Below are positions 17,767-53,073 of a DNA stretch of 64,000 bases, piece after piece. Positions within the stretch are counted from its first letter, which is position 1. The number at the start of each line of letters is the position of its first letter. The notes beneath the pieces are model-generated. The model was given only the letters and a program-made list of their open reading frames with translations. It was not told the DNA's origin and did not search any database. A program made the position numbers and the translations under genes. Origin of the DNA: Armatimonadota bacterium (GTDB lineage Bacteria > Sysuimicrobiota > Sysuimicrobiia > Sysuimicrobiales > Sysuimicrobiaceae); the NCBI GenBank assembly GCA_031460175.1, contig JAVKGW010000009.1:1-64000 (forward strand), read 5' to 3'.

Positions 17767-18801
17767 TCAGCGGGACCCCCGCTCCCGGATCCGGTCCAAG
17801 GCCTTCTGTAGGTAGCTGAAGTCCACGAGCTGCTCCGTGGGGATTATGGCCCGGATGGCCCGCCACTCCAGCATGAACTCCTGCAGGGGTCTGATGTAAC
17901 TCACGTTGAAGGTGCCGTCCGGCCGCAGGCCCGGCCAGATCATGTTCCGGTACACCTCCACGTCCTTGAAGGGGAGGTACTTGAGGAAGATGCGGATCAC
18001 CTCCTCCCGGACGGAGGGATCCCGCATCGCCACGTCGTAGTAACGCAATCCCCGGATGTACGCGGTCATCCACCGCACCGCCAGGTCCGGGTTGGCGAGG
18101 ATCGCGGGCCCGTAGAAGATCACCCCGATGGGGAAGTCGTTCACCACGCGGTCCGCGGTCATGAGGACCACCGCGGACTTGAGCCGGTAGGTGGCCACGG
18201 TGGCCACGGGCTCGATCACGAAGGCGGCGTCCACGGCGCCGTTCTGTAGGGCCACGGGCATCTCGGGGTTCGGCAGGACCACCAGGTCCACGTCCCGCAG
18301 GGAGAGCCCCGCGGTCCGGAGCATCTCCTGGACCTCGAAGGTCACCGCACCCTCCAGGTTCGTCACCGCCAGCTTCCGACCCCGGAGTCCCGCGATGGAG
18401 CGCACTCCCTGTTCGTACAGCTGCCGGCGGACGAGCAGCACGTTGAACCCGTTGCCCCGCCGGATGATCCCCTTCCCGGCCACGACCTTCAGGTTGATCC
18501 CCTGGTGGATGGCGTTGATGAAGGCGGGATCGAGAGCTCCTCCCCCCACGTGGAGCTGCCCCGTGGCCAGCAGCGGGATGGTCTGCCCGCCCGTGCGGAA
18601 GGTGTTGTTCATGGAGACCTCGATGCCCTCCTCCGCGAAGTAGCCCTTCTCCATGGCGATGTACATCCCGGCGTCGGAGGGATGGCCCACGGTCCCCACC
18701 ACCACCCGGTCCAGCCGCCGCTGCCCCAAGGCCGCCTCCCAGCCCCCAGCCAGGGCTAGGACGCAGGCCAGTCCGAACACCGCCCACCGCCAGATCCGCA
18801 T
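17767..18801 (-). CDS. ABC importer substrate-binding protein, SsuA/NMT1-like
   Basis: A 344-residue exported protein. The start at 18801 is chosen for the signal peptide MRIWRWAVFGLACVLALAGG and the GGAGGTGAGG upstream; an ATG 54 bp further out would spoil the signal. The body reads VGTVGHPSDAGMYIAMEKGYFAEEGIE, NTFRTGGQTIP, ALQNGAVDAAFVIEP and IWPGLRPDGTFNVSYIRPLQ. A clear paralogue is encoded at 48535-49548. Permease and ATPase genes lie directly upstream on the same strand. Confidence 0.86.
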   Translation of the reverse strand: MRIWRWAVFGLACVLALAGGWEAALGQRRLDRVVVGTVGHPSDAGMYIAMEKGYFAEEGIEVSMNNTFRTGGQTIPLLATGQLHVGGGALDPAFINAIHQGINLKVVAGKGIIRRGNGFNVLLVRRQLYEQGVRSIAGLRGRKLAVTNLEGAVTFEVQEMLRTAGLSLRDVDLVVLPNPEMPVALQNGAVDAAFVIEPVATVATYRLKSAVVLMTADRVVNDFPIGVIFYGPAILANPDLAVRWMTAYIRGLRYYDVAMRDPSVREEVIRIFLKYLPFKDVEVYRNMIWPGLRPDGTFNVSYIRPLQEFMLEWRAIRAIIPTEQLVDFSYLQKALDRIRERGSR

Positions 18802-18820
18802 CCTCCTCACCTCCCCCGGA

Positions 18821-19632
18821 TTACTGCCAGGGCACCAGGATCCTGCGCAGGGCATCCACGGCCAGCACGGAGAGGTAACCGAGCAGGGCGGTGATCATGA
18901 GCACCGCGTACAGGGTCGGCACGCTGAAGGTCTGCCAGCTGCTCCACAGCACGTACCCCAGCCCGTTGCGGGCTCCCAGCATCTCCGCCAGCACCACGAG
19001 GATCAGGCTCAGCCCGATTCCCAGCCGTGCTCCCGCCATGATGAGGGGGAGAGCCCCTGGGAGGGCCACCGTGCGGATCATCTGCCAGCGGGTGGCGGAG
19101 AAGCTGCGGGCCACGTCGAAGTACACCCGCCCCGTCACCAGAACCCCCTCCATGGCGTTCACCACCATCACGAAGAACACCCCGATGGCGGACATGGTGA
19201 GCTTGGAGCCCTCTCCCAGCCCGAAGATCAGCAGCAGGAGCGGCAGCAGGGCACTTTTCGGAATGGGGTACAGGGCAGCCACCACGGGGTCCAGGGCGGC
19301 CCGCACCCATGGCGAAAGCCCCATCAGGATGCCCAACAGGGCCGCGGGCACAGCCCCGATCACAAACCCCACCCCGAGCCGGGCCAAGGTGGCCCCCAGG
19401 TGCGGCAGCAGTTCCCCGCTCGCCAGTCCCCGCACCAGGGTCTCGAAGATGAGGCTCGGGGGTGGGAAGAACCGGGCGTCCATCCAGCCCATCCGCGCCG
19501 CTGCCTCCCAGGCGCCCAGCCACACGAGGGGGAAGGCGCTGCGGGCCAGGGCCGCGGCCTGGATCCCGAGTCCCGAGCTTTGGGAGGCGGGCCTCCGCTC
19601 CAGGGCCTGTGCGGGAAGGATCCGCTCCTCCA

Positions 19633-19633
<1 letters not shown>
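18821..19633 (-). CDS. ABC importer permease, SsuC/TauC-like
   Basis: A 270-residue membrane protein with about six membrane segments and coupling loop FDVARSFSATRWQMIRTVALPGALP. The GTG start shares one base with the ATPase TAG stop. Single permease gene, so probably a homodimer, unlike the 2906-4485 system. Confidence 0.88.
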
Positions 19634-20424
<791 letters not shown>

Positions 20425-37379: not shown

Positions 37380-38135
37380 ATGAGCCGGAAACCCACCTCG
37401 GAAGCGAGCCAGGCCCAGCCAGCCCTTTACCGGTACCAGCGCATCCGGGAACACCTCCTTCAGCAGATCCAGTCGGGAAATCTGCGCACGGGGGACCGGA
37501 TCCCGCCGGAGGAGGAGCTGGCGGAGCAGTTCGGCGTGAGCCGCATGACCGCTCGTCAGGCGGTCATGGAGCTGGTGCGTGAGGGCTGGCTGTACCGACG
37601 ACAGGGCGTGGGGACCTTCGTGACCCAGCCTCCCTTCGAACGCCAGCTCAGCCGTCTCACCACCCTTTCGGAAGAGCTGGAAGCCCGGGGGCAGGGGGAC
37701 CGGCTCCGATCCAAGGTGCTCAGCTGGTGTGTCCTCCCAGCGGCACGCCCTGTGGCGGAGATCTTCGACCTCCCCCCCAGGACCCCCTTGCTCCGCATGA
37801 GCCGGGTCCGCTACCTAGACGAGGCGCCCCTCGCCCTGCAGGTGATCTACATGCCCGCCGAGATGGTCCGAGGGCTGCGTCCCCGGGACCTGGAGCGCGG
37901 GTCCGTGTACCGGGTGCTGGAAGATCGGCTGCGGCTGCGCATCTACCGGGCGGAGCAACGGGTGGAGGCCGTCCCCGCCACGCGTTTCCACGCCCGGGTG
38001 CTGGAAGTGCCCGTGGGCAGCCCCCTCCTCCTCGCGCGCAGGCGGGCCTACCTCGCGACGGGCCAGCTGTTCGAGGTCACCCGTACCTACTACCGGGCCG
38101 ACCGCTATTATTTCCAGGTCACCCTCTATCGGTGA
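37380..38135 (+). CDS. GntR-family (HutC/UTRA) transcriptional regulator
   Basis: A 251-residue regulator. The winged helix spans residues 15-85 (RIREHLLQQIQSGNLRTGDRIPPEEELA, SRMTARQAVMELVREGWLYRRQGVGTFV). The UTRA ligand domain covers about 95-250 (PLLRMSRVRYLDEAPLALQVIYMP, GSVYRVLEDRLRLRIYRAEQ). HutC-type proteins bind GT-N-TA-N-AC operators. One such site, GTATAGAC, lies 42 bp past this gene at the next gene's 5' end, and two more at 183 and 20488. It is the likely regulator of the M24 and following genes. Confidence 0.88.
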   Translation: MSRKPTSEASQAQPALYRYQRIREHLLQQIQSGNLRTGDRIPPEEELAEQFGVSRMTARQAVMELVREGWLYRRQGVGTFVTQPPFERQLSRLTTLSEELEARGQGDRLRSKVLSWCVLPAARPVAEIFDLPPRTPLLRMSRVRYLDEAPLALQVIYMPAEMVRGLRPRDLERGSVYRVLEDRLRLRIYRAEQRVEAVPATRFHARVLEVPVGSPLLLARRRAYLATGQLFEVTRTYYRADRYYFQVTLYR

Positions 38136-38177
38136 GGCCCCACGAGAAGGAAGGACGGGAGAGGACCGCGTAGTAAT

Positions 38178-38185
38178 GTATAGAC
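38178..38185. promoter_or_regulatory. Candidate HutC/GntR operator, site C
   Basis: GTATAGAC in context AATGTATAGACAAAA, in the only sizeable gap (70 bp) of this part of the gene run, directly between the HutC-type regulator and the M24 gene. TATAGA inside the site could serve as a -10, so binding would block initiation. The site overlaps an in-frame ATG at 38176, which argues that the M24 gene starts at 38206 instead. Confidence 0.5.
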
Positions 38186-38205
38186 AAAACGATCCGGTGG
38201 CGCGT

Positions 38206-39348
38206 ATGGAGGTGCTCCCAGCATCCCTTCCCCCGCGGCAGGAGCGGGACTGGCGGATCCGTCGGATCCGGGCGGCTATGGCGGAGGCCGAGCTCGAGGG
38301 GGTCCTCCTCTGGGGTCCGGCCTGGAGACGGGAGAACGTGCGCTACCTCACCGGGGCTCCGCTCCGGGGGAGTTTCTCCGCGGTGTACGTGCCGGCGGTC
38401 GGAGAGCCTACCGCCTTCGTCTCCCGAGAGGAAGACCGTGATGCGGTGGAACGGATCGGATGGATCCGGGACATCCGCCCGCTTGGGTTTCCCGGCTGTC
38501 AGGAGCTGGTGAGCCGGATCCGCGATGGAGGTCCTCCGGCGCGGATCGGGGTGGCCTTATGGGAACTCGTGCCGGAGGCCCTGGGAGGGGTTCTCCGGCG
38601 GGAGCTCCCCCGGACGGAGGTTGTCTGCGCCACCGACCTCCTGGATCGCCTCCGGATGGTGAAGAGCTCTTGGGAAGTGGAGCAAATCCGGAGGGCGGCG
38701 CGGGTGTGCGAGGCGGGGTGGGAGGCGTTTCTGCAGGCCCTCCGGCCGGGGATCGCCGAGTACGAGGTGGTGGCGGCGGTGGAGGAGACGCTGAAGCGGC
38801 TGGGAGCGGAGGACAACTTCATGCTCATCGCCTCCGGAAGGGACGAGGTCCGGGGCATGACCCCTCCTCGCCCGCGCCGCATCGAGCGGGGGGATCTCGT
38901 GCGCACCGAGCTCACTCCCCAGGTCAACGGGTACTGGGCCCAGATCTGTCGCACCGCGGTGGTGGGAGCGCCTGCGGAGCCTCACCTCCGGTCGCTGGAG
39001 CTGTTCCGGGAGGCGATGGAAGCAGGCATCGCGGCCTGTCGGCCGGGGGCCACCGCCCACGAGGTGGCGAAGGCCCAGAACGACGTCTTCCGGAAGCACG
39101 GCTACGGGGAGTACTGCACGAGCCGGTACACCCGGGTGCGGGGGCACGGGCACGGCCTGCACCTGGACGAGTGGCCCACCCTCCTGGAAGGGGTGGAGGT
39201 TCCCCTGGAGGAGAACACGGTGCTCATCGTGCACCCGAACACCTACACGCCGCTCGCGGGTTACTTCGTGCTGGGGGATCCCGTGGTGGTCACCCGGGAG
39301 GGCTGCGAGCGGCTGCTCCGGACGGAGCCCATCCTGTTCGCCGTGTAA
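38206..39348 (+). CDS. M24-family creatinase/ectoine-hydrolase-like protein (pita-bread fold)
   Basis: A 380-residue protein: N-terminal creatinase domain (about 15-150) then pita-bread domain (about 160-380). The metalloprotease ligands are mostly replaced: the two Asp positions read TELTP and GYWAQICRT (Glu, Gln), and the last Glu region reads FVLGDPVVVT. GHGHGLHLDEWP keeps His and Glu. This matches metal-independent members such as creatinase and DoeA-like hydrolases, which cleave C-N bonds of small molecules rather than X-Pro peptides. Start at 38206 chosen because the upstream ATG lies in the operator. Confidence 0.8.
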   Translation: MEVLPASLPPRQERDWRIRRIRAAMAEAELEGVLLWGPAWRRENVRYLTGAPLRGSFSAVYVPAVGEPTAFVSREEDRDAVERIGWIRDIRPLGFPGCQELVSRIRDGGPPARIGVALWELVPEALGGVLRRELPRTEVVCATDLLDRLRMVKSSWEVEQIRRAARVCEAGWEAFLQALRPGIAEYEVVAAVEETLKRLGAEDNFMLIASGRDEVRGMTPPRPRRIERGDLVRTELTPQVNGYWAQICRTAVVGAPAEPHLRSLELFREAMEAGIAACRPGATAHEVAKAQNDVFRKHGYGEYCTSRYTRVRGHGHGLHLDEWPTLLEGVEVPLEENTVLIVHPNTYTPLAGYFVLGDPVVVTREGCERLLRTEPILFAV

Positions 39349-39358
39349 GGGGAGACCG

Positions 39359-40444
39359 ATGAAGCGAGGACTCGTGGTGCTGGATCCGCTTGAGGTCACC
39401 CCGGAGGAGTATGCCCAGCGAGTGGGGGCGTTTCAAAATCTCCTCCGTGCCTCCGGCTGCGGCCTGGGGTTGATCTACGGGGACGTGTACCGATCCGGGG
39501 ACCTCACGTATCTCACCAACCTGTGCCTGTACTGGAACGAGGGCATCCTCGCAATCCCCGCGGAGGGAGAACCCGCGTTCCTCACCAGGCTCTCCCCTCG
39601 CGTCCATCCCTGGATTCGGTCCACCAGCACGGTCTCGGATCTGAGGAGCGACCAGGATCTCGCGGCCCTCGTGGAGGCCGTTGCCACGGGGCATCCGGAG
39701 GGGGCCGTGGGGCTGGTGGAAGAGGCGTGGTGGCCGGCCCCCCTGCTGGAGTCCGTCCGGAAGCGGCTCGTGGACCGCACGGTGCGCGACCTGGGACCGG
39801 CGGTCCGGGCCCTGCGGCGCCGTCCTTCCGGGGCGGAGCGCCGGCTCCTCCGGCAGAGCGCCAGGCTCGCGGCCATCGCGGTGGCCGTGGCCGCCTCCAC
39901 CTCCGGCGGGAGGTCCGAGCGCGTGGCCGCCGCGGAGGGGGAGTTGCGGAGAGCGGGCGTCCGGGATGTGATCCTCTGGTGCGATCCCAGACCCGGGGGA
40001 ACCTGGATCGTGGAGGCCAGGGTGGATTGGCGGGGATACTGGGCCCACGCGGCCCGTACGGTTCTCCCCGGCCAGGCCCCCTCCGAACCCGAGGAGCGGT
40101 TCGTGGAGGCCTATCGGGAGGCTGCGGCGGTCCTCCGGGCCGGGGTACGGCAAAGCCAGGTAGAAGCGGAGGTGCGATCCCTCCTCGGGGACCTGCCGGA
40201 GGAACGGTGGTCCGTGGAGGTCTTGGAGCACGTGGATCTCGAGACCTGGGGAGAGCACCGGCCGCTCGAGCCGTGGGACGAGCCGATTCCCGAGGGCGCC
40301 GTGGTTTCCCTGGCGCTCCGGCTCCGGGGACCGGAGAGGGGCTGGTGGGTTGCCGCGGACACGTATGAGCTACACGCGACCGGCGCGGACCGCCTCACGG
40401 ACCGGTTGCCCCCGATTCCGGTGTGGCGGGAGGCGGTGGGGTAG
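39359..40444 (+). CDS. Second, degenerate M24-fold protein
   Basis: A 361-residue protein starting ten bases after the first M24 gene. The creatinase N-domain is recognisable (GLIYGDVYRSGDLTYLTNLCLYWNEGILAIPAEGEPAFL). The C-terminal half retains only the outline RGYWAHAARTVLPG, SQVEAEVRSLL and PEGAVVSLALRLR; the GHGxG histidine motif is absent and the metal Asp is His. Probably catalytically inert by itself, perhaps a partner of the preceding protein in a heteromer. Its role is unknown. Confidence 0.65.
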   Translation: MKRGLVVLDPLEVTPEEYAQRVGAFQNLLRASGCGLGLIYGDVYRSGDLTYLTNLCLYWNEGILAIPAEGEPAFLTRLSPRVHPWIRSTSTVSDLRSDQDLAALVEAVATGHPEGAVGLVEEAWWPAPLLESVRKRLVDRTVRDLGPAVRALRRRPSGAERRLLRQSARLAAIAVAVAASTSGGRSERVAAAEGELRRAGVRDVILWCDPRPGGTWIVEARVDWRGYWAHAARTVLPGQAPSEPEERFVEAYREAAAVLRAGVRQSQVEAEVRSLLGDLPEERWSVEVLEHVDLETWGEHRPLEPWDEPIPEGAVVSLALRLRGPERGWWVAADTYELHATGADRLTDRLPPIPVWREAVG

Positions 40445-40453
40445 GAGGGAGGC

Positions 40454-41533
40454 ATGCGGATTCTCACCAACGCGGAGATCGAGCAGGTGCTCACCATGCA
40501 GGACTGCATCGAGGCCCTGGAGCAGGCCTATAAGGAGCTGGCTCAGGGGCTCGGCGCGAACCGACCCCGGAACCACACGTACTTCCCCGTGGAGGACCCC
40601 CGCTACCCCGGCTTCCGGTTCCGGTTCAAGTCCCAGGAAGGGGGGTGCGTGAGCGCAGGGGTGTGGGCCCTCCGGATCACCTCGGACCTCGCGGGCGTGG
40701 AGGTCCTCCCGGGCGGGGTGAAGCGGCGGCGTCTTCTTCCCGCGGCCCCGGGAGACCGGTACGTGGGACTGGTCTTCCTGTTCAGCCTCCGGGATCTCGC
40801 GCCCCTTGCCGTCCTCCACGACAGCGTGATCCAGAAGATGCGGGTAGGGGCAACGAGCGCCCTGGGCATCCGGGAACTGAGCAATCCGGATGCCCGGGTG
40901 GCGGGCCTCTTCGGATCGGGATGGCAGGCAGGGGCGCACCTGGAGGCGCTGCTGCTGGTCCGGCCCGGCATCGAGGAGATCCGGGTCTACAGCCCCACCC
41001 GGGAACACCGGGAAACGTTTGCCGCCCAGTGGAGCGAGCGGACGGGCAAGCGGGTCATCGCCGTGGACCATCCCCGCGAGGCGGTAGAGGGTTGCCAGAT
41101 CGTCACGTGCGCCACCGCGGCCATGGATCCCTGTTTTGACGGTGCCTGGCTGGAGCCCGGAACCCACGTGACCTGCATCACGAGTCCGGACGGGACCGCC
41201 ATGCGCCGAGAGCTCGACGACACCACCTTCGATCGGGCGGACGTGATCGTGGTGCTCTCCAACGAGCAGGTGGAGCACGACAACCAGATCGACATCCTGG
41301 GGCCCGTGCGGCGTGGAAGGAAGCGGCGGGAGGAGATCCGGGAGTTGGGGGAGGTGTTGCTCGGACGGGCTCCTGGACGCACCCGCCGGGACCAGATCAC
41401 GGTGTTCGCCAACAACACGGGGATGGGGATCCAGTTCGCGGCAGTCGGAGCCCGGGTCCTGGCGAGGGCGGAGGCCCTGGGTCTGGGGCGGACCATCCCC
41501 GTGGAGTGGTTCCTGGAGGAGACCACTCCGTGA
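40454..41533 (+). CDS. Ornithine cyclodeaminase / mu-crystallin family protein
   Basis: A 359-residue NAD(P)-dependent protein. RFRFKSQEGG carries the substrate-binding Lys59, VHDSVIQKMRVGATSALGI is the family dimer/substrate segment, and GLFGSGWQAGAHLEALL is the dinucleotide-binding GxGxQA turn. The C-terminal QITVFANNTGMGIQFAAVG matches the family end. Members are ornithine cyclodeaminases, ketimine (Delta1-pyrroline-2-carboxylate) reductases or amino-acid dehydrogenases. Next to C-N hydrolase-like and hydro-lyase genes, an imine reductase role is plausible. RBS GGAGGGAGGC. Confidence 0.82.
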   Translation: MRILTNAEIEQVLTMQDCIEALEQAYKELAQGLGANRPRNHTYFPVEDPRYPGFRFRFKSQEGGCVSAGVWALRITSDLAGVEVLPGGVKRRRLLPAAPGDRYVGLVFLFSLRDLAPLAVLHDSVIQKMRVGATSALGIRELSNPDARVAGLFGSGWQAGAHLEALLLVRPGIEEIRVYSPTREHRETFAAQWSERTGKRVIAVDHPREAVEGCQIVTCATAAMDPCFDGAWLEPGTHVTCITSPDGTAMRRELDDTTFDRADVIVVLSNEQVEHDNQIDILGPVRRGRKRREEIRELGEVLLGRAPGRTRRDQITVFANNTGMGIQFAAVGARVLARAEALGLGRTIPVEWFLEETTP

Positions 41534-43359: not shown

Positions 43360-44376
43360 ATGCGAAGAGTGCCGTGGGTGCTTGTGGGCTTGATCCTGCT
43401 GGCCGCCGGTTCCGCCAGGACCCTGGCAGGCCCGTCCGTTCCGGACTCCGTACGGCTCCCGGAGCCCACCACCGTCCGCGCGGTGGTGATCCCCGGAGCG
43501 CAGGACTTCGTGATCAACGTGATGCAAAAACAGGGCTTCGACCGCAAGTACAACCTGGTGCTGGACATCCGGCGGGTGCTGCAGCCCCAGTTCGCAGACC
43601 AGGCGGTGGCGGAACGGCTGGTGGACATCGGATTCATGGGGATCGTGGGGGCGGTGAAGGCACGGGCGGAGGGGAAGGGGGTCGTGATCTTCAACGTGCT
43701 CACCGGCCCCAGCAACCTGGTCCTCGCTCCGCAAGCTTCCCCGGTGCGGACCCTGGCGGACCTGCGGGGGAAGAAGATCGGGACCTTCAGCGGCCCCGGA
43801 AGCGCCACCTACGCCATGCTGGTCGCCATCGGACGGCACGTCTACGGCATCGATCTGGAGAAGGAAGCGCAGCTCGTCTCCGCCCCGAACCCCGCCCTCA
43901 AAGGGCTCATGGACCGAGGCGAGCTCGCGGCGGCGTTGTTCGGCACCGTGGACAGCGTGAAGGTGTTCCTGGAGGGACGGTACCGGATTGTGAGCGACCT
44001 CGCGGAGGACTTCCAGAAACGGTTCGGGCGGGTGGCCGCCCACGTGGTCATGGCCACCACGGAGGATTACGCACGTCGGCATCCGGAGGTCCTGCGGGCC
44101 TTCGTGGCCGCGTACAACGACACCATGCGGTACGTGGATCGGGAACGCCGGGTGTGGGTGGAGTACGCCCGGCAGTTGGAGTTCCCTAGCCCGGAGGCGG
44201 CCGCGGTCCTGTTGCGCCAACGCATGGGAAGCCGGTTCATCCGGCGGTGGGATGAGGAGCAGCGGAAGGTGCAGGAGCAGTTCATCCGGATCCTGATCGA
44301 GGTGCTGGGCCCGGAGCGGTTCGTCCGGGACGTCCCACCCGGGCTCATGCGCCTGGACCTGCAGCCGCGGCGGTAG
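43360..44376 (+). CDS. ABC importer substrate-binding protein, SsuA/NMT1-like
   Basis: A 338-residue exported protein with signal peptide (residues 1-24, MRRVPWVLVGLILLAAG). The body has NVMQKQGFDRKYNLVLDI, VDIGFMGIVGAVKARAEGKG, VRTLADLRGKKIGTFSGPGSATYAML and a long helical C-terminus. It differs from the other three SsuA-type proteins of the window. Permease and ATPase genes follow. The importer is embedded between two aconitase-superfamily genes, so its ligand is probably the hydroxy or unsaturated dicarboxylate they convert. Confidence 0.83.
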   Translation: MRRVPWVLVGLILLAAGSARTLAGPSVPDSVRLPEPTTVRAVVIPGAQDFVINVMQKQGFDRKYNLVLDIRRVLQPQFADQAVAERLVDIGFMGIVGAVKARAEGKGVVIFNVLTGPSNLVLAPQASPVRTLADLRGKKIGTFSGPGSATYAMLVAIGRHVYGIDLEKEAQLVSAPNPALKGLMDRGELAAALFGTVDSVKVFLEGRYRIVSDLAEDFQKRFGRVAAHVVMATTEDYARRHPEVLRAFVAAYNDTMRYVDRERRVWVEYARQLEFPSPEAAAVLLRQRMGSRFIRRWDEEQRKVQEQFIRILIEVLGPERFVRDVPPGLMRLDLQPRR

Positions 44377-44385
44377 GCTCGGACC

Positions 44386-45144
44386 ATGGCTTGGCGAAGC
44401 GGGGCCGTCCGCCTGGTGGGAGTCGCGGGAATGCTGGTGGTGTGGATGGGAGCGGCTTCGCTGCTCCCCGATACGGTCCTGCCAGGTCCCTCCGCGGTGT
44501 TGCAGACCATCTGGCGGAACCTCCATCAGCCGGAGACCTTCTACCACATCGGGGTTACCGTGCGGCGGGTTCTGGTGGGCATGGGGCTGGCCCTGGTGGC
44601 GGGCACCCTGGTCGGGGTGATCATGGGGATCTCCCGGGTGGGGGAGTGGGTGCTGGATACCTGGGTGCTGGTGGGCCTCACCATCCCAGCGGTGGTCTAC
44701 GGGATCGTGTGTATCCTCTGGTTTGGCCTTCGCGACCTCGCGGCGTTCATGGCCATCGGGATCTCCGCGTTTCCCGCCATTGCCATCAACATGTGGCAGG
44801 GAGTGAAGGCCATCGATCTCTCCCTGGTGCACATGGGAAAGGCGTTCCGCCTCTCCCGGCGCGCGCTGGTTCTGAAGGTGGTCATTCCTCAAACGGTGCC
44901 CTATCTGCTGGCGGCGGTGCGGTACGCGCTCGGGATCTCCTGGAAGATCGCCACCGTGGTGGAACTGATCGGTCTGTCGAGCGGAGTCGGGTACATGCTG
45001 CACTACTGGTACGGTCTGTTCTCCATGCGGCAGGTGCTCGCCTGGACCCTGACGTTTACGGGGGTGCTCGTGCTCTTCGAATTCGTGGTGCTCAAACCCC
45101 TGGACGGGTGGGTGACCCGATGGCGGCCCAGGGTCTCGACGTAG
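44386..45144 (+). CDS. ABC importer permease, SsuC/TauC-like
   Basis: A 252-residue membrane protein: LLPDTVLPGPSAVLQTIWRN near the start, about six membrane segments, coupling loop HMGKAFRLSRRALVLKVVIPQTVP, and KPLDGWVTRWRP at the end. It lies ten bases after the binding-protein gene with only a weak ribosome binding site, so translation may be coupled. Confidence 0.88.
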   Translation: MAWRSGAVRLVGVAGMLVVWMGAASLLPDTVLPGPSAVLQTIWRNLHQPETFYHIGVTVRRVLVGMGLALVAGTLVGVIMGISRVGEWVLDTWVLVGLTIPAVVYGIVCILWFGLRDLAAFMAIGISAFPAIAINMWQGVKAIDLSLVHMGKAFRLSRRALVLKVVIPQTVPYLLAAVRYALGISWKIATVVELIGLSSGVGYMLHYWYGLFSMRQVLAWTLTFTGVLVLFEFVVLKPLDGWVTRWRPRVST

Positions 45145-45155
45145 GAAGGGAACCC

Positions 45156-45953
45156 GTGCGGGCAAGCCCCAAGATCCGGCTGGAGCGGGTTTCGAAGCGG
45201 TTCCAGCTGCCCCGGGGCGGGGAGCTCCGGGTCCTGGAGCGGCTGGATCTGGAGGTCGAGGAGGGAGCGCTGCTCTCCATCGTGGGACCCTCGGGGTGCG
45301 GGAAATCGACCCTACTGAACATGGTGGCGGGACTGGAGCCGGCCTCGGAGGGACGGGTCCTGGTGAGCGGAAAGGAAGTGGGGCCGGGACGGGGGACGGT
45401 GCGGGTGGGGTACGTGTTTCAACAGCCGCGGCTGCTCAGCTGGCGCACCCTACGGGGGAACGTGCTCCTTCCGTTGGAGGAAATGGGGCTGTCGCGTGCG
45501 GAGCGGGAGGCGCGGGCGGATCGGTATCTGGCCCTGGTGGGGCTCCAGGAGTTCGCCCACTACTATCCCCTGCAGGTGTCCGGAGGGATGCAGCAACGGG
45601 TGGCCATCGCCCGGGCGCTGGCGGTGGAACCGGAGGTGCTGCTGGCGGATGAACCGTTCTCCGCCCTGGACGAGATCACAGCCCGTCGGCTGCGGGAGGA
45701 GTTCGTGCGGATCTGGCAGGCCACGGGTCGGACGGTTCTGTTCGTGACGCACAGCATTCGGGAAGCGGTGTTCCTCTCCACCCGGGTGGTGGTGGTGACC
45801 CCCCGGCCCGCCCGGATCTACCTGGATGTGCCGGTGCCGATCCCGTATCCGAGGACGTACGAGGACGAGCGGCTGTTCGCCCTCGAGCGGGAGATCACCC
45901 GCGAGTTCCTCCGAATGGAGAAGATGGTGGGGCCTCACGTAGGGATCGCGTGA
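45156..45953 (+). CDS. ABC importer ATPase, SsuB/TauB-like
   Basis: A 265-residue nucleotide-binding subunit: Walker A GPSGCGKST, Q-loop VFQQPRLLSW, signature VSGGMQQR (Val for Leu), Walker B VLLADEPFSALDE, H-loop LFVTHSIREA. I place the start at GTG 45156, five bases behind GGAAGGG. An ATG at 45120 in the same frame would overlap the permease gene by 25 bp. Confidence 0.88.
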   Translation: MRASPKIRLERVSKRFQLPRGGELRVLERLDLEVEEGALLSIVGPSGCGKSTLLNMVAGLEPASEGRVLVSGKEVGPGRGTVRVGYVFQQPRLLSWRTLRGNVLLPLEEMGLSRAEREARADRYLALVGLQEFAHYYPLQVSGGMQQRVAIARALAVEPEVLLADEPFSALDEITARRLREEFVRIWQATGRTVLFVTHSIREAVFLSTRVVVVTPRPARIYLDVPVPIPYPRTYEDERLFALEREITREFLRMEKMVGPHVGIA

Positions 45954-45972
45954 GATGCGGAAGGAGCGTCCC

Positions 45973-47241
45973 ATGACTCTGGTGGAGAAGATCCTGGCGC
46001 GGGCGAGCGGACGCACCCGGGTGGAGCCCGGAGAGGTGGTGGTGGCGGACGTGGATCTCATCCTCCTGCATGACCTCAGCGGATACCTGACGGCCCGGGT
46101 GTTCGAGGAAAAGGTGCGGCTCCCCCTGCGGTACCCGGAGCGGGTGGTGATGGTGTTCGATCACCACTTCTCTCCTCCCACGGAGGAGGGGGCGAGGCTG
46201 CTGGAGGAGAACCGGGCCTTCGCCCGACGGTACGGGATTCGGCTCTTCGACTGCGGGCACGGGAACATCCACAACGTGGCGGTGTGGGCCGGGCTCGTGC
46301 GCCCCGGGATGGTGGTGGTGGGCTCCGACAGCCATACCCCGGTGCACGGGACGCTGGGCTGCTTCGCGGCGGCCCTCGGCAACGACTCCCACGCGGCCCT
46401 GGGATTCCCCTACGGGAAGGCCTGGTTCCGGGTGCCCCACACCGTCCGCATCGAGCTCGAGGGGACGTCCGGTCCCGGAGTCACGCCCCGGGACGTGGCC
46501 CTTTGGCTTGCTGCCACCATCGGGGAGGGCGGGGCCATCTACAAGGCTCTGGAGTTCGACGGCCCGTACCTCCGGCAGCTCGGCTTCTGGGACCGTTGGC
46601 TGTTCCCCCTTCTCACCGTGGACGTGGGCGCGAAGTGCGGGTACATTGAGCCCGATGAGGTGACGGAAGCCTTCCTCCGCTCCGTCACGAAGGAGCCCTA
46701 CGAGGTGGTGCGGGGGGATCCGGATCGGGAGTACGAGGCGGTGTGGCGGTACGAGGTGAGCGGACTGGAGCCCCAGGTGGCCTGCCCGCCGACGGTGGGG
46801 AACGTGAAACCGGTGACGGAGGTGGCCGGTGTCCCCATCCAGTGGGCCGAGTTGGGAGGACATGGAGGATGCCGGATCGAGGACATCCGGCTTGCCGCGC
46901 GGATTCTGAGCGGCCGCAGGAAGCACCCGCAGGTGAAGTTCAACATCGTGCCCTCAAGCCGCGCGGTCTTCACGCAGGCCCTGCGGGAGGGTCTGGTGGA
47001 GGTCCTCCACGAGGCAGGGGCCACGTGGTTTCCGCCCAGCGCGGGCAGCAACCAGGCCATCAACATGGGCGCCATGGCCGCGGGCGAGGCCATGATCTCC
47101 ACTCACTCCCGGAACTTTCCCGGCCGCAATGGAAGCCCGCAGGCCAAGATGTATCTCGCGAGCGCCCTCACCGTGGCCGCCTCTGCGGTGGCAGGGTGTA
47201 TCACGGATCCGAGGGAGTTCCTCAGAGAAGGAAGGGAGTAG
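45973..47241 (+). CDS. LeuC-like large subunit lacking all three Fe-S cysteines
   Basis: A 422-residue homologue of isopropylmalate dehydratase/aconitase large subunits. Substrate-site motifs remain: FDHHFSPP, GSDSHTPVHGTLG (Asp119-Ser120-His121) and HSRNFPGRNGSP. The cluster ligands are gone: against the 41553 protein, Cys474 aligns with His297 (GGHGGCRIED), Cys534 with Ala357 and Cys537 with Asn360 (PPSAGSN). Cys300 is in a non-ligand position. The enzyme, if active, must work without a [4Fe-4S] cluster, maybe with a metal at His297. ATG 45973 follows AAGGAG with correct spacing and is preferred to ATG 45955. The small subunit gene follows after one base. Confidence 0.85.
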   Translation: MTLVEKILARASGRTRVEPGEVVVADVDLILLHDLSGYLTARVFEEKVRLPLRYPERVVMVFDHHFSPPTEEGARLLEENRAFARRYGIRLFDCGHGNIHNVAVWAGLVRPGMVVVGSDSHTPVHGTLGCFAAALGNDSHAALGFPYGKAWFRVPHTVRIELEGTSGPGVTPRDVALWLAATIGEGGAIYKALEFDGPYLRQLGFWDRWLFPLLTVDVGAKCGYIEPDEVTEAFLRSVTKEPYEVVRGDPDREYEAVWRYEVSGLEPQVACPPTVGNVKPVTEVAGVPIQWAELGGHGGCRIEDIRLAARILSGRRKHPQVKFNIVPSSRAVFTQALREGLVEVLHEAGATWFPPSAGSNQAINMGAMAAGEAMISTHSRNFPGRNGSPQAKMYLASALTVAASAVAGCITDPREFLREGRE

Positions 47242-47242
47242 G

Positions 47243-47746
47243 ATGAGGTTCCGGGGGCGGTGTTGGAAGTTCGGGGATTACATCCCCACGGATCAGATCG
47301 TGCCCTCGCACCTGGTGTACCGTCCCATGTCGGAGATCGTGCGGCACGTGCTCGTGAATTTGAATCCGGAGTTCCCTGAGCGCGTGCAGCCCGGAGACAT
47401 CGTGGTGGCGGGGAAACACTTCGGGCAGTCCTCCGGCCGGGCCATCGCCGCCAAGGCCATTCAGGCCACGGGGGTGGCCTGCGTGGTGGCCGAGAGCTTC
47501 GCCCGCACCTTCTACCGGAATGCCTTCGAGATCGGCCTGGCCATCCTGGAGTGCCCGGGGATCTCGGAGGCTGTCCGGGAAGGGGATGTCCTGGACGTGA
47601 ACCTGGAGACCGGGTGGGTGCGCAACGAGAGCACGGGCAGAACGCTCCGCGGCGAGCCCACCCCTCCATTTCTCCTCGAGATGCTCCGGGCAGGCGGGTT
47701 GATCCCGTTCGCGCCGAGGTTGCTGGAGGAGGGCGGGAAGCGGTGA
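47243..47746 (+). CDS. LeuD-like small subunit, partner of the Fe-S-less large subunit
   Basis: A 167-residue swivel-domain protein: FGDYIPTDQIVPSHL, ESFARTFYRNAFEIGLAILECP and LLEMLRAGGLIPF. The active-site loop reads KHFGQSSGRAIAAKA, where canonical small subunits, including the domain in the 41553 protein, read NFGCGS(S/A)REQA or SREHA. Ser64 and Arg66 are kept but the Glu after Arg is Ala. This matches the divergence of its large subunit, so both have probably drifted together toward a different mechanism or substrate. Confidence 0.84.
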   Translation: MRFRGRCWKFGDYIPTDQIVPSHLVYRPMSEIVRHVLVNLNPEFPERVQPGDIVVAGKHFGQSSGRAIAAKAIQATGVACVVAESFARTFYRNAFEIGLAILECPGISEAVREGDVLDVNLETGWVRNESTGRTLRGEPTPPFLLEMLRAGGLIPFAPRLLEEGGKR

Positions 47747-48528
47747 ACTTCCGGATCGTGGACTTAAGCGTCCGCGTGGACCACCGGAGCCCGGACGAGC
47801 CCTGGCCTGCGGAGGTCCGGCGGGTAGATCATCGGACCGCCGCCCTCCAGCGGGCGGCGGCATTTGGGATTTCCCCCGACGAGTTCCCGGGGGGACTCCA
47901 CCTGGCCAATGAGGAGTGGCGCCTCATCACCCACGTGGGGACCCACATGGATGCCCCGTGGCACTATGGCCCCACTTCCCAGGGAAGAAAGGCGCGCACC
48001 ATTGACGAGATCCCCCTCGGTTGGTGCTTCGGACCGGGGGTCGTGCTGGACGTGAGCCACCGGAGGGCGGGGGAGGAGATCGTCCGGGCGGACCTGGAGC
48101 GAGCCGTGAGCGGAATCGGCTACACGCTGAAGCCAGGGGACATCGTGTTGCTCTATACCGGGTGCGATGCGTATCTGGGCACGAAGGAGTACTTGGAGGC
48201 CCACCCCGGGCTCTCCCGGGAGGGCCTGCTGTGGCTGCTGGATCAGGGGATTCGGGTCATCGGCATCGACGCGTACAGCCTGGATCGGCCCTTTCGGGTG
48301 ATGGCGGATGCCTACAAGCAAGCAGGGGCGAAGGCCCTGTTCCCCGCGCATTATGCGGGACGGGAGCGGGAGTACTGCCAGATCGAGAAGCTCTGCAACC
48401 TGAAGGCCATCGGACGCGCGTGGGGGTTCTGGGTGGCGGCATTCCCCATCAAACTGGCCGGCTCGGGAGCGGGCTGGGTCCGTGCCGTGGCGCTCGTGCC
48501 GGAAGAGGGCGGAGGAGAGGAGGCGTAG
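47743..48528 (+). CDS. Cyclase-family (kynurenine formamidase-like) metallohydrolase
   Basis: A 261-residue protein with the signature metal motif HVGTHMDAPWH (His64, His68, Asp70, His74), plus GPGVVLDVSHRRAG, LKPGDIVLLYTGCD and GIDAYSLDRPF. Members include N-formylkynurenine formamidase, isatin hydrolase and other amide or lactam/lactone hydrolases using Zn or Mn. The GTG start overlaps the small-subunit stop (GTGA), coupling it to the Fe-S-less hydro-lyase pair. It may open a lactam or lactone feeding that pair. Confidence 0.85.
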   Translation: MNFRIVDLSVRVDHRSPDEPWPAEVRRVDHRTAALQRAAAFGISPDEFPGGLHLANEEWRLITHVGTHMDAPWHYGPTSQGRKARTIDEIPLGWCFGPGVVLDVSHRRAGEEIVRADLERAVSGIGYTLKPGDIVLLYTGCDAYLGTKEYLEAHPGLSREGLLWLLDQGIRVIGIDAYSLDRPFRVMADAYKQAGAKALFPAHYAGREREYCQIEKLCNLKAIGRAWGFWVAAFPIKLAGSGAGWVRAVALVPEEGGGEEA

Positions 48529-48534
48529 GATCTC

Positions 48535-49548
48535 ATGCGAAGGCCATGGCGTGTGGGAGTGGTCGTGCTGCTCGCCTCGGTCTTCTGGTCGGGGATGCTG
48601 GCCGGGCAGGAACGGTTGGACCGCATCCGGGTGGGAACCGTGGGCACCACGGCGGATGCGGGGATCTACGTGGCCCAGGAGAAGGGGTTCTTTCGGGATG
48701 AGCGCATCGAGGTGGTGGTCCAGAACACCTTCCGGACCGGCGGGGAGATGATCCCCTTCGTGGCCACCGGTGAGCTCCCGGTGGCGGGTGGGGCAATGGA
48801 TGCGGCGTTCATCAACGCCGTGCGACAGGGGATTCACCTGCGGGCGGTGGCGACCAAGGGGAGCATGAAGCAGCAGGTGCTGGTGGTCCGCCGTGAGCTG
48901 TTCGAACAGGGGCTGCGCACGGTCGCAGGGCTGCGGGGGCGAAGGATCGCGGTGAGCAGTCCCTCCGGGGCCGTGGCCTTCGAACTGCAGGAGGCGTTGC
49001 GAACCGCAGGACTCACCCTGGACGATGTCCAGCTGGTGACCCTGCGGTTCCCGGACATGCCCGTCGCCCTCCAGAACGGATCCGTGGACGCGGCACTCAT
49101 GATCGAGCCCTCCCGGACAGTGGCGGTGGACGGGTTGAACGCGGGGAGGGACCTCATGACCCTGGATCGGGTGCTTCCCGATTTCCCCATCGGCGTCCTC
49201 TTCTACGGGGAGCGGATGTACCGGGATCGGAACCTGGGGATCCGATGGATGGCGGCATACGTGCGGGGTCTGCGGTATTACGAACGGGCCCGACGGGAGG
49301 GCCGGCTCGAGGAGATGCGACGGATCCTGAGCCGGTATCTGCAGTACGAACGGGTGGTTTGGGAGCGGATGATCTGGCCGGACCTCCGGCCGGATGGAAC
49401 CTTTGACGCGAAATACCTGCGCCCGCTCCAGGAGTTCATGTTGGGCCGGAGGGCCATCGGAGGGATCGTGCCCACGGAGGAACTCGTGGACTTCAGCTTC
49501 CTGCAGGCTGCTCACGAGCACCTGCGAAGGAAAGGGATTCGTGATTGA
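48535..49548 (+). CDS. Orphan ABC substrate-binding protein, paralogue of the 17767 protein
   Basis: A 337-residue exported protein (signal residues 1-24). It shares RLDRI/VVVGTVG, the NTFRTGGEMIP stretch, VAGGAMDAAFINAVRQG, PVALQNGSVDAALMIEP and IWPDLRPDGTFDAKYLRPLQEFML with the 17767-18801 product. No permease or ATPase gene is adjacent, so it may feed the importer at 18821-20424 or the one at 44386-45953. Confidence 0.85.
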   Translation: MRRPWRVGVVVLLASVFWSGMLAGQERLDRIRVGTVGTTADAGIYVAQEKGFFRDERIEVVVQNTFRTGGEMIPFVATGELPVAGGAMDAAFINAVRQGIHLRAVATKGSMKQQVLVVRRELFEQGLRTVAGLRGRRIAVSSPSGAVAFELQEALRTAGLTLDDVQLVTLRFPDMPVALQNGSVDAALMIEPSRTVAVDGLNAGRDLMTLDRVLPDFPIGVLFYGERMYRDRNLGIRWMAAYVRGLRYYERARREGRLEEMRRILSRYLQYERVVWERMIWPDLRPDGTFDAKYLRPLQEFMLGRRAIGGIVPTEELVDFSFLQAAHEHLRRKGIRD

Positions 49549-49563
49549 TTCCAGGGAGAGGAC

Positions 49564-51357
49564 ATGGGACCGCAGGAGTGTCTGTTGGGAAGCTCGTTCG
49601 GCACGGATTGGCGAACATCCCCTCGACAATACGGTGTGGTGGTGGAGCGGGATGTCCGGGTACGGATGAGCGACGGAGTACACCTGAGTTGTGACATCTT
49701 CCGGCCGGACGCGAACGGACGCTTCCCGGTCATCCTGGGTTGTCATCCTTACGACCCCAAGGGACAGACGGCACCCATCCGGCCCGGCCCCCTCTCCACC
49801 ACGCGATGGCGGAATCCTGGCCAGGAGCGGACGAACGCCTCCCTGGAAGCGGGGGATCCGTACTTCTTCGCCCGTCGGGGCTACGTCCACGTGATCTGCA
49901 ACGTCCGGGGGACGGGGCGGTCGGAGGGGCTCTGGCAGTTCATGGGGCGGCGGGAGGTCCAGGATGTGTGCGAGCTCATCCGTTGGATCCGACAGCAGCC
50001 CTGGTGCAACGGACGGGTCGGGATGTTCGGGGTCTCCTACTTCGCGCGGATCCAGCTGTTCGTTGCCGCTGAGCATCCGGAGGGGTTAACGTGTCTATTC
50101 TGCCCCTGGGCCTCGACGGATTTCTATCGGGACGTGATGTACCGAGGAGGAATCCTGGCCCATGAGTGGCTGCTGGGGTGGAGCCGGACCTCCCTTTCCT
50201 ATGCGGGATGCCGGCCCGCGAACCACAGCAAGGCCATGCTCGGAGAGCGGGCCTATCGTCAGGCCGTCCAGGGACTCCTGGAGGATGAAGACCTGGCAGG
50301 AGTGCCGGAGCTCCGTACCGTCCTCGAAAATCCGGAGAAGGGGATTCATCCCTTCATCGTGGACGTCCTCCTGCACCCCCTGTACGACGCGTTCTGGGAA
50401 GAGCGTTCTGCCCGCCTGGATGCCATCGAAATTCCCGCGTACTTGGGCGGGGACTGGGGGATTTTCGGCCTCCACCTGCCGGGGGCGTTTCGGAGCTGGC
50501 GACGGATTCGGGGGCCCAAGAAGATGCTGATCGGACCCCCCGTGTACCTTGATCGTCCCCTCTACCAACTGCATTTCGAAGCCCTCCGCTGGTTCGATTA
50601 CTGGCTCAAGGGCATGGAGACCCGCATTCTCGAAGAGCCTCCGGTTCGGCTGTTCATCGTCGGCCTGGAAGACTGGCGGGAGGCCACGGACTGGCCGGTC
50701 CCGGGCACGCGGTGGATCCCCTTCTTCCTGCACGAGGGAGGGCTGCTTTTGGACCGCGAGCCTTTCGGGGAGGAGGGCAGCGATGCGTGGGAGGACTCCC
50801 CGTGGTACCGGGGCGCATTGGAGTACGTGACCCCGCCCATGGTGGAGACCACGGAGATCCTGGGGCCTATGGTCCTGGTGCTGCGGGCGGCGAGCACGGA
50901 CGTGGAGATCTTTTGGATCGCGTCGGTTTACAGGGAGGATCGAGATGGGAACCGGACGCTCCTGACCCGGGGGTGGTTGCGGGGCTCCCAGCGCCACGTG
51001 GACTGGGAGGCATCCTGCCCATGGGAGGTGCACCATCCGCATGATCGCCGGGAACCGCTACGCCCGGGAGAGATGTACGAGTTCTTCATCAACATCGTCC
51101 CCACGGGCGTGCGACTTCGGCCCGGAGAGCGGCTCCGGCTCAGGCTGAGCGGTGTGGAGGATCCTGCCACGAATCCCCTGGAGGTCATCGGAAGCGGCAG
51201 CCTCCGGCGGCAGTCCCCTTCCCGCATCACGGTTTTCCGAAATGCCCAACACCCCTCGTTCCTGCTGGTGCCCGTGACCCGGGGAAACCTCCTGGGCAGT
51301 TTTGTCTCCGGAGGCAGGTGGCCGGGGGGCTCCGGACGAACGGACGAAGGTCAGTAA
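49564..51357 (+). CDS. CocE/NonD-family (X-Pro dipeptidyl-peptidase S15) hydrolase-like protein
   Basis: A 597-residue alpha/beta hydrolase with C-terminal jelly-roll. VRVRMSDGVHLSCDIFRPD, NVRGTGRSEGLW and the nucleophile elbow GMFGVSYFARIQL (Ser present) are clear, as is the PPG-type C-terminal domain (about 380-590, ending in VFRNAQHPSFLLVPV). The usual catalytic His motif GPWTH is GPPVYLD, and the Asp-bearing GGWxD segment reads GGDWGIF. Hydrolytic activity is therefore uncertain. Canonical members cleave esters such as cocaine, acyl-amino acids or glutaryl-cephalosporins. Confidence 0.78.
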   Translation: MGPQECLLGSSFGTDWRTSPRQYGVVVERDVRVRMSDGVHLSCDIFRPDANGRFPVILGCHPYDPKGQTAPIRPGPLSTTRWRNPGQERTNASLEAGDPYFFARRGYVHVICNVRGTGRSEGLWQFMGRREVQDVCELIRWIRQQPWCNGRVGMFGVSYFARIQLFVAAEHPEGLTCLFCPWASTDFYRDVMYRGGILAHEWLLGWSRTSLSYAGCRPANHSKAMLGERAYRQAVQGLLEDEDLAGVPELRTVLENPEKGIHPFIVDVLLHPLYDAFWEERSARLDAIEIPAYLGGDWGIFGLHLPGAFRSWRRIRGPKKMLIGPPVYLDRPLYQLHFEALRWFDYWLKGMETRILEEPPVRLFIVGLEDWREATDWPVPGTRWIPFFLHEGGLLLDREPFGEEGSDAWEDSPWYRGALEYVTPPMVETTEILGPMVLVLRAASTDVEIFWIASVYREDRDGNRTLLTRGWLRGSQRHVDWEASCPWEVHHPHDRREPLRPGEMYEFFINIVPTGVRLRPGERLRLRLSGVEDPATNPLEVIGSGSLRRQSPSRITVFRNAQHPSFLLVPVTRGNLLGSFVSGGRWPGGSGRTDEGQ

Positions 51358-51366
51358 GGGAGGTGG

Positions 51367-53073
51367 ATGGTGGACCGAGCGGGACGTCGAGAGGAAGGCC
51401 TGCGGAGGCGGTGGCGGAGCTGCCTTGCGGAGGAATCCCCGCGGTGGGCGGTGCGGCGGGCGCACTGGCGGGCCATGGGGCTCACGGAGGAGGATCTGGA
51501 ACGGCCCAAGATCGCCATCGTCAACAGCTCCTCGGAACTGGCCATGTGCTTCCGGCACCTGGACGGGATTGCGGCGCGGCTCAAGGAGATCATCCGGGCG
51601 GCGGGAGGGGTACCCTTCGAGATCCGGACCGCGGCCCCCGCGGACTTCATCACCAGCGCCGGGCACGGGGGAGGATATGTGCTCAGCGCCCGGGACCTCA
51701 TCGTGAACGACATCGAGGTCGCGGTGGAGGGGGCCCTCCTGGACGGCATGATCTGCCTCTCGTCCTGTGACAAGACGGTTCCCGCCCACCTCATGGCCGC
51801 CGCCCGGCTGAACCTTCCGACCCTCATCGTGGCCTGCGGGTACCAGCCCAGCGGCGAATACAAGGGAAGAGCCGTGGACATCGAGGACGTGTTCCTGCAC
51901 GCTTCCGGCGCGGCCGCGGGAGCCTGCGATCTCCGAGAGGTGTGGGAGATGGCGGACCGGGCCATCCAGGGGCCCGGCGTGTGCCCGGGCATGGGCACCG
52001 CGAACTCCATGCACATGGCCTGCGAGGCCCTGGGGATGGCATTGCCCGGAAGCACACCGGTGCTCGCGAATGGTCCCCGGATGTGGGGAGTGGTGGAGGA
52101 GGCCGGCCAGCGCATCGTGGAGCTGGTGGTGGAGGACGTGCGGCCCCGCTCAATCCTCCGCCCCGAAGCGTTCGCCAACGCGGTCACGGTGATGCTGGCA
52201 GTGGGGGCGAGCATCAACGTGGTGAAGCACCTTCAGGCGGTGGCGCGGGAAGCCCGCTGCCCGGTGGACATCTACGAGCTCTTCGCGCAGTATGAGGAGA
52301 AGGTGCCCCTCCTGGTGGCGGTCCGGCCGAACGGCGAACACCGCATCGAGGATCTGGAAGAGGCCGGGGGGACCCTGGCGGTCCTGAAGCGGCTGGAGCC
52401 CCTGCTGGCCGCGGACGTTCCCACCGTGGCGGGACGGACGCTCCGGGAAATCCTCCGGGACGTGCGGGTGGGCCGGGAGGAGGTGGTCCGTCCCCTGGAC
52501 CGACCCTGGCGGAGGCGGGGAACCATCGTGATCCTGAGGGGCTCCCTCGCCCCCCAGGGGGCCATCGTACGGCTGGGATCCGCGCAGGACGGGTCGACAC
52601 GTTTCTCCGGGCCGGCCAAGGTCTACGACTCGCAGGAGCGAGCCCTGGAGGGGTTGCGGAGGGGAGAGGTGGGTCCGGGACAGGTGGTGGTGATCCGGGG
52701 GATGGGCCCCCGGGGCAGACCCGGCATGGGGATGGTCTCCGCGTTCGCCTTTGCCCTGGACCGGGCCGGGCTCAGCGGGCGGGTCGCGATGGTCAGCGAC
52801 GGACAGGTGTCCGGTCTGCTCAACCGCGGGCTCGTGGTGGCGGAGGTTTCCCCGGAGGCCGCAGAAGGGGGTCCTCTCGCGTGGGTGGAGGACGGGGATC
52901 GGATCGTCATCGATCTCGAGGCGCGCCGGGTGGATCTGGAGGTGCCCCCGGAGGTGCTCGAGGCCCGGCGGCAGGCCCGTCCCTGGGAAAGCCCGGTGGA
53001 GGAGCACGGATGGTTGGAGATTTACCGGAGGCTCGTACGTCCCCTGCGGGACGGCGCCATCCTGGTGGAGTAA
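51367..53073 (+). CDS. IlvD/Edd-family Fe-S dehydratase
   Basis: A 568-residue dehydratase of dihydroxy-acid/sugar-acid type. The cluster cysteines are Cys61 (ELAMCFRHLDG), Cys134 (LSSCDKTVPAH) and Cys206 (GPGVCPGMGTANSM). The C-terminal signature, usually SDGRFSG, reads SDGQVSGLLNRG. The length fits the [2Fe-2S] aldonic-acid dehydratases and DHAD alike. In a catabolic cluster with a ThDP enzyme a hydroxy-acid dehydratase is more likely than valine synthesis, but this is inference. Confidence 0.86.
   Translation: MVDRAGRREEGLRRRWRSCLAEESPRWAVRRAHWRAMGLTEEDLERPKIAIVNSSSELAMCFRHLDGIAARLKEIIRAAGGVPFEIRTAAPADFITSAGHGGGYVLSARDLIVNDIEVAVEGALLDGMICLSSCDKTVPAHLMAAARLNLPTLIVACGYQPSGEYKGRAVDIEDVFLHASGAAAGACDLREVWEMADRAIQGPGVCPGMGTANSMHMACEALGMALPGSTPVLANGPRMWGVVEEAGQRIVELVVEDVRPRSILRPEAFANAVTVMLAVGASINVVKHLQAVAREARCPVDIYELFAQYEEKVPLLVAVRPNGEHRIEDLEEAGGTLAVLKRLEPLLAADVPTVAGRTLREILRDVRVGREEVVRPLDRPWRRRGTIVILRGSLAPQGAIVRLGSAQDGSTRFSGPAKVYDSQERALEGLRRGEVGPGQVVVIRGMGPRGRPGMGMVSAFAFALDRAGLSGRVAMVSDGQVSGLLNRGLVVAEVSPEAAEGGPLAWVEDGDRIVIDLEARRVDLEVPPEVLEARRQARPWESPVEEHGWLEIYRRLVRPLRDGAILVE

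Follow-up and report, generated by a model that had tools for sequence, protein, structure and literature searches.

The iron-sulfur cluster is regarded as the hallmark and the catalytic Lewis acid of the aconitase superfamily, and in the known aconitase-type enzymes it serves the departure of the hydroxyl group. The residue numbering of aconitase, used below for equivalent positions, and the roles of its residues are established knowledge. The iron regulatory proteins (IRPs) are large single-chain proteins in which the cysteines are kept, and IRP1 can exist without the cluster and then binds RNA. Dimethylmaleate hydratase (DmdAB) is a LeuCD-family hydratase of anaerobic nicotinate breakdown, and DmdA is a cluster enzyme. 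Structures are available for LeuCD (MJ0499, 4kp1/4nqy; small subunit 3vba) and HacAB (MJ1003, 4kp2; small subunit 2pkp) of M. jannaschii. AcnX, including mevalonate 5-phosphate dehydratase, departs from the standard cluster; its cluster, [2Fe-2S] in AtAcnX, is bound by three cysteines (Cys273, 508, and 510), and its cluster cysteines are placed elsewhere, including at the position of His147 (PMC8184944, where the aconitase residue roles are also partly restated). PMC5144071 places AcnX in hydroxyproline-metabolism gene clusters.

The window analyzed here is a stretch of 64,000 nucleotides from an Armatimonadota genome (GCA_031460175.1, contig JAVKGW010000009.1). It encodes, in two intact reading frames on the + strand, a LeuC/LeuD-like pair, here called X, whose large subunit has no cluster cysteines. 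The large subunit (X-LSU; 45973-47241, 422 aa; PF00330, E 6.7e-63) starts at an ATG at 45973, in agreement with the starts of its homologues, another in-frame ATG being found at 45955. The LeuD-like small subunit (X-SSU; 47243-47746, 167 aa; PF00694, E 1.5e-11) starts at an ATG at 47243 and has an altered active-site loop. Alignment of X-LSU to MJ0499 and mitochondrial aconitase equates His297 (codon 46861-46863) with Cys358, while Ala357 to Asn360 (47041-47052; codons 47041-47043 and 47050-47052) take the places of Cys421 and Cys424. The sequence-only reading of this DNA was thus right in placing His297, Ala357, and Asn360 at the cluster-cysteine positions, in coordinates as well as residues.

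The AlphaFold2 model of X-LSU (pLDDT 90.5), which covers the large subunit alone, matches 4kp1 with a TM of 0.92 (Foldseek E 7.8e-50), HacA of the same branch and fold with 0.91, and mitochondrial aconitases with 0.81-0.85, whereas the value for AcnX is about 0.55. X is thus much nearer to LeuC than to AcnX, and no AcnX match for X was found in Pfam/NCBIfam or by sequence in PDB; the earlier statement that AcnX is different and keeps ligands of its own agrees with PMC8184944. Like M. jannaschii LeuCD, X consists of separate subunits and has the same catalytic residues except those around the cluster, where X has other residues in place of the three cysteines and of Asn446, and a different small-subunit loop. 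HacA likewise differs from X in retaining the three cysteines. The comparison with IRP1/IRP2 differs again, since X is permanently without the cysteines and lies in a metabolic operon.

Both aconitase domains are recognized in X (PF00330, 213.7 bits against a cut-off of 28.7; PF00694, 45.2 against 22.8). However, unlike LeuCD, X scores far below the LEU2/leuD equivalog cut-offs: X-LSU obtains 310.6 against 610.65 for TIGR02083 and 140.3 against 560.25 for the second LeuC model, TIGR00170. It also falls below the HacA equivalog NF040615 (305 against 550) and, by a wide margin, below the aconitase equivalogs. The aconitase/IPM dehydratase large-subunit subfamily model NF001614 (PRK00402) is passed by the X-LSU of the window (396 against 385), and other clade members straddle its cut-off (404, 357, and 379); the broad NCBIfam label of the window protein, aconitase/3-isopropylmalate dehydratase large subunit, is probably misleading. 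X-SSU fits TIGR02087, the 'LeuD/DmdB' small-subunit model (157.9 bits, cut-off 108.95), which is its point of likeness to DmdAB. A separate LeuC in the same genome passes TIGR02083 (612.1) and so covers leucine synthesis; yet another PF00330 gene of this genome lies in a 932-codon frame.

A scan for patterns from the C-terminal part of X, run over about 85,000 species genomes, identified 35 loci with 70-84% identity; as exact short peptides were required, the scan finds close relatives only and the clade may be larger. The loci belong to Actinomycetota (18), Bacillota (nine), Spirochaetota (three), Pseudomonadota (two), Myxococcota (one), Chloroflexota (one), and one other Deltaproteobacterium. 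Together with the window and a sister genome of the same genus (G001) they make up an X clade of 37, that is, 36 homologues outside the window genome. The comparison set was formed by 88 family members outside the clade, among them the partner paralogues of these loci and the top LeuC-type matches from several hundred genomes. The three-cysteine [4Fe-4S] signature (358, 421, and 424) is absent from all 37 X large subunits, which come from at least six phyla. His297 and Asn360 are common to all of them, and both positions hold Cys in 88/88 of the others. Of the three residues His, Ala, and Asn, the first and third are therefore common to the homologues, but position 357 is Thr in 28, Ala in only seven, and Ser in two. 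In a maximum-likelihood tree one branch (SH-aLRT 100) separates all 37 X large subunits from the rest, and their stem measures 1.65 changes per column; the tree comes from a quick search with SH-aLRT but no bootstrap and contains no DmdA reference, and its long stems make the exact attachment of X uncertain.

The sister genome shares the operon, from its GntR gene to IlvD, and its X subunits are 93% (large) and 92% (small) identical to those of the window, with all altered residues kept. Nei-Gojobori dN/dS between the two genomes is 0.063 for X-LSU and 0.099 for X-SSU, compared with 0.076-0.294 for the other operon genes. The X pair is thus under strong purifying selection, at the low end of the operon. 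None of the clade members was found on a plasmid; the 491 plasmid records that matched were all below 60% identity, the best at 41.5%. The loss of the three cysteines, taken by itself, is what a decayed LeuC/LeuD copy or a sequencing error could also produce, but the homologues refute this reading, whose probability we regard as negligible: the change is common to 36 other genomes, the frames are intact, dN/dS is 0.06, and the operon is the same. The replacement recurs in 36 further genomes, which span at least six phyla, and a normal LeuCD-like pair lies next to it; X is therefore, as judged from the sequences, a real and selected branch of the aconitase family that has no cluster, rather than a product of decay. 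The proposal of a coordinated, functional change in both chains is supported by the 36 homologues, the purifying selection, the conserved operon, and the retained catalytic residues. The sister genome also has another LeuC/LeuD-like gene (L028, G001:C12:57959-59198), whose match comes in two overlapping pieces; this suggests a frameshift.

The remaining active site of X is largely conserved. The motifs DHH (residues 63-65), SDSHT (118-122), and SRNFPGR (379-385) are present, as the sequence-only reading had maintained, and wherever the frame is complete the clade keeps the equivalents of Asp100, His101, His147, Asp165, Ser166, His167, Arg447, and Arg452 (D63, H64, H100, D119, S120, H121, R380, and R385 of X-LSU). 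The X pair has the catalytic residues of the superfamily, Ser642 and Arg644 included, with the exception of the Glu262 and Asn446 equivalents. Conservation of the active-site positions is thus incomplete: the Asn446 equivalent is Ala or Ser, the Glu262 equivalent varies (Glu in 22, His in ten, Gln in four, and Thr in one), and the second serine of GSSR is changed. In X-SSU the loop HFGQSSGRA (residues 59-67; 47417-47443, + strand) replaces NFGC(G/N)S(A/S)RE, in agreement with the altered loop reported earlier. It is identical in all 41 X small subunits that cover it, while partner small subunits have NFGCGSARE (25/25) or NFGCNSSRE (7/7). The Ser642 and Arg644 equivalents (S64 and R66) are kept, the Ser643 equivalent has become Gly65, and the following Glu has become Ala.

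Altogether, 34 positions are constant within the X clade but different in the other family members, which argues for an altered rather than a relaxed function. Glu293, His297, Asn360, Gln361, Cys94, and Asn98 are both invariant and new in the clade; His65 is present in 36/37 X large subunits, and Asn364 is invariant in X yet also found in some partners of the C1 type described below. From these patterns, the X active site is predicted to retain the substrate-binding and proton-transfer parts around a rebuilt cluster site. A displaced ligand was considered at Cys300 of the window protein, three residues past His297, and rejected, as this position is Gly in 35/37 clade members; the cysteines have neither moved nearby nor been retained in X-clade homologues, the two outcomes that would have spoken for error or a pseudogene. 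An iron-sulfur cluster held by other ligands, for example Cys94 and His297 together with substrate or small-subunit residues, would have a precedent in AcnX, whose cluster cysteines sit elsewhere, and all X large subunits, but none of the others, have Cys94. However, Cys94 is the sole fully invariant cysteine of the large subunit (C222 is cysteine in 97% of the clade), no fully invariant cysteine was found in the clade alignment of the small subunits, and one Cys plus one His are too few for any known aconitase-type cluster; we therefore regard such a cluster as very improbable.

X-LSU and X-SSU lie in a larger cassette on the + strand of the window. A putative GntR-like regulator (37380-38135; family name from reading the sequence), whose ORF clusters with cassette-adjacent ORFs in L065 and L062, precedes two M24-fold proteins, M24a (38176-39348; PF00557, E 2.3e-36) and the adjoining, very divergent M24b (39359-40444; PF00557 below cut-off). 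They are followed by an OCD/mu-crystallin-family oxidoreductase (40454-41533; PF02423, E 3.2e-42), whose top solved relative is delta1-pyrroline-2-carboxylate reductase (6t3e), and by C1 (41553-43343), a LeuCD-like partner whose sister-genome copy has 92% identity over 596 aa. C1, named earlier as the intact relative of X, does have the three cluster cysteines but is a single fused small-large ORF. The fusion is found in the window genus (sister copy L027:8302-10089), and the other loci have separate genes. An ABC importer (43360-45953), in the same layout in the sister genome, lies between the two LeuCD-like pairs and comprises an SsuA-like binding protein (43360-44376), a permease (44386-45144), and an ATPase (about 45137 to 45953). 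After the X pair, at 47743-53073, genes were found for a Cyclase (PF04199), a second SsuA-like binding protein, a CocE/S15-type hydrolase, and an IlvD-family dehydratase; IlvD is also near the cassette in L062 and CocE in L066.

In aerobes the cassette has the order M24a - M24b - OCD - LeuD - LeuC - LeuC(X) - LeuD(X); a regulator and an importer, of the SsuA-like ABC or the MFS type, usually stand before it. The anaerobic carriers (Clostridia, Lachnospiraceae, Peptococcaceae, Flexilinea, and Spirochaetes) have TRAP - PreA-like oxidoreductase - LeuC - LeuD - M24a - M24b - LeuC(X) - LeuD(X); a second LeuD(X) is common. Two X-type small subunits per X large subunit, both with QSSGR, were observed in anaerobic loci, at L061:10453-11514, L072:10447-11463, L081:10448-11459, L086:10492-11483, and L088:10488-11514. 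A PreA/dihydroorotate dehydrogenase-like oxidoreductase with a ferredoxin domain stands in place of OCD in L061, L067, L071, L072, L081, L086, and L088, being cut off by the contig end in L071. The partners fall into two distinct clades, C1 in the company of OCD and C2 in that of PreA; members of either have the three cysteines, and the PreA swap always coincides with the change of partner clade. Distances between the cassette proteins are correlated (r 0.79-0.91; 0/500 permutations as high), so the cassette is largely inherited as a unit, with shared species history also contributing. Where no partner pair or no M24 genes are visible, the contig mostly ends early. A real exception is L059 (Myxococcota), which has X, OCD, and C1 and lacks an M24 gene over about 9-10 kb; putative UbiD-like decarboxylases (L059:14897-16300 and 18492-19880; named from reading the sequence) lie downstream.

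The constant company of a cluster-bearing pair raises the main rival to a catalytic X, namely a non-catalytic regulatory or scaffolding partner forming a hetero-oligomer with the active LeuCD-like pair. A cluster-bearing pair is near X in every locus that is long enough, often with overlapping stop and start codons, and M24a and M24b in the same cassette are a comparable pairing with one very divergent member. However, the catalytic and substrate-binding residues of X are invariant, which is unusual for a pseudoenzyme, and the pairs are separated by the ABC transporter in the window or by M24 genes in anaerobes. In addition, the same X clade accompanies either C1 or C2, which suggests successive steps of a pathway rather than one fixed complex. 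We consider a non-catalytic role unlikely.

M24a resembles X in its changed metal site. Compared with prolidase, D209/D220/E313/E327 are replaced by E/Q/H/G in 30-31 of 31 loci, and only His284 is kept among the five metal ligands; M24a is thus predicted to be the second de-metallated protein of the cassette. The AlphaFold2 model of M24b (pLDDT 91.3) has prolidase/creatinase as top Foldseek matches (E 1e-18), and this protein is possibly a heteromeric partner or a pseudoenzyme. Two M24-fold enzymes, ectoine hydrolase and the metal-independent creatinase, hydrolyse C-N bonds, and by this analogy a reaction of that kind within the pathway is plausible. The ectoine pathway, which also has M24 and OCD proteins, was rejected as an identity of the cassette, the NCBIfam ectoine models giving 75 against 575 and 122.7 against 471.65.

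With some reserve, we favour the explanation that X is catalytically competent and cluster-free, an aconitase-superfamily enzyme that arose inside the LeuC/HacA-type branch and carries out one step of a catabolic cassette. Against competence stand the variable Glu262 equivalent, the loss of the cluster, which would disable the standard mechanism unless the chemistry has changed, and the ever-present nearby cluster-bearing paralogue, which also fits a non-catalytic partner. What we infer of activity, metal state, substrate, and subunit pairing is as follows. The subunits presumably pair as in LeuCD, and three arginines (R380, R385, and R66 of the small subunit) would hold the carboxylates. S64 would act as the serine base that abstracts the proton next to a carboxylate, a step that X most likely still performs since the arginines, S64, and the Asp-His pairs are kept. 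In place of the Lewis-acid cluster, an invariant polar set (His297, Asn360, Gln361, Asn364, and Glu293) would act either through hydrogen bonds that activate the leaving or attacking group or by holding a single metal ion, and the step would be one addition/elimination or isomerization. The metal-ion variant (Fe, Mn, Zn, or Mg, through His297 and its neighbours) is a tentative sub-case of this favoured explanation, which we hold possible rather than probable. A His invariantly replaces the cysteine, the X-specific polar residues E293, H65, C94, N98, N360, and Q361 are located within active-site motifs or adjacent to them, and the related AcnX uses other cluster types and ligand positions (PMC8184944); however, M24a in the same cassette is without metal ligands, and the pathway may tolerate metal-free catalysis.

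Transporters near the cassettes are of the SsuA/NMT1-like ABC, TRAP, TctC, and MFS types and regulators of the MarR, GntR, IclR, and PaaX types (several named from reading the sequence). These types fit the uptake and catabolism of an organic acid. The cassette looks like an uncharacterized breakdown operon, and the importers, regulators, OCD-family oxidoreductase, and M24 proteins together suggest catabolism of a nitrogen-containing organic acid. M24a, M24b, the OCD or PreA-like oxidoreductase, and the cluster-bearing LeuCD-like enzyme would degrade the imported acid along with X, by a route whose presence in strict anaerobes suggests that it is oxygen-independent. Most likely, X acts as a hydro-lyase or isomerase that needs no cluster, in the breakdown of a probably nitrogen-containing carboxylic acid. 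Dipicolinate was dropped as a guess for the substrate after a search. HyuB- and MmgE/PrpD-like genes adjoin the cassette in two distant bacteria (L064:291-3289 and L068:4890-10128, the latter also with HyuA), a possible clue to the substrate. These and further neighbours, including UbiD (L059), amidase, aldehyde dehydrogenase, amidohydrolase, luciferase-like proteins, IlvD, and CocE, are too rarely shared to decide the substrate.

In open-access papers, the scope of our search as distinct from subscription papers and preprints, no description of a cluster-free LeuCD-type enzyme or of the X operon was found, and the novelty of the clade is provisional. In many phyla the X pair is accompanied by a LeuCD-like pair that does carry the cluster, by two M24-fold proteins, and by an oxidoreductase, an association invisible from the window alone; the cassette points to a catabolic pathway not described before. 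It is, in our judgement, an evenly balanced proposition that this superfamily branch has abandoned its cluster permanently, with catalysis by side chains or one metal ion, in an undescribed oxygen-independent catabolic pathway of aerobes and strict anaerobes in which an M24-fold enzyme would also have been stripped of its metal site. X could serve as an oxygen-robust scaffold for hydratase engineering. As a natural and conserved cluster-free LeuCD-type clade, it makes directly testable whether the aconitase fold works without its cluster, and what replaces the cluster.
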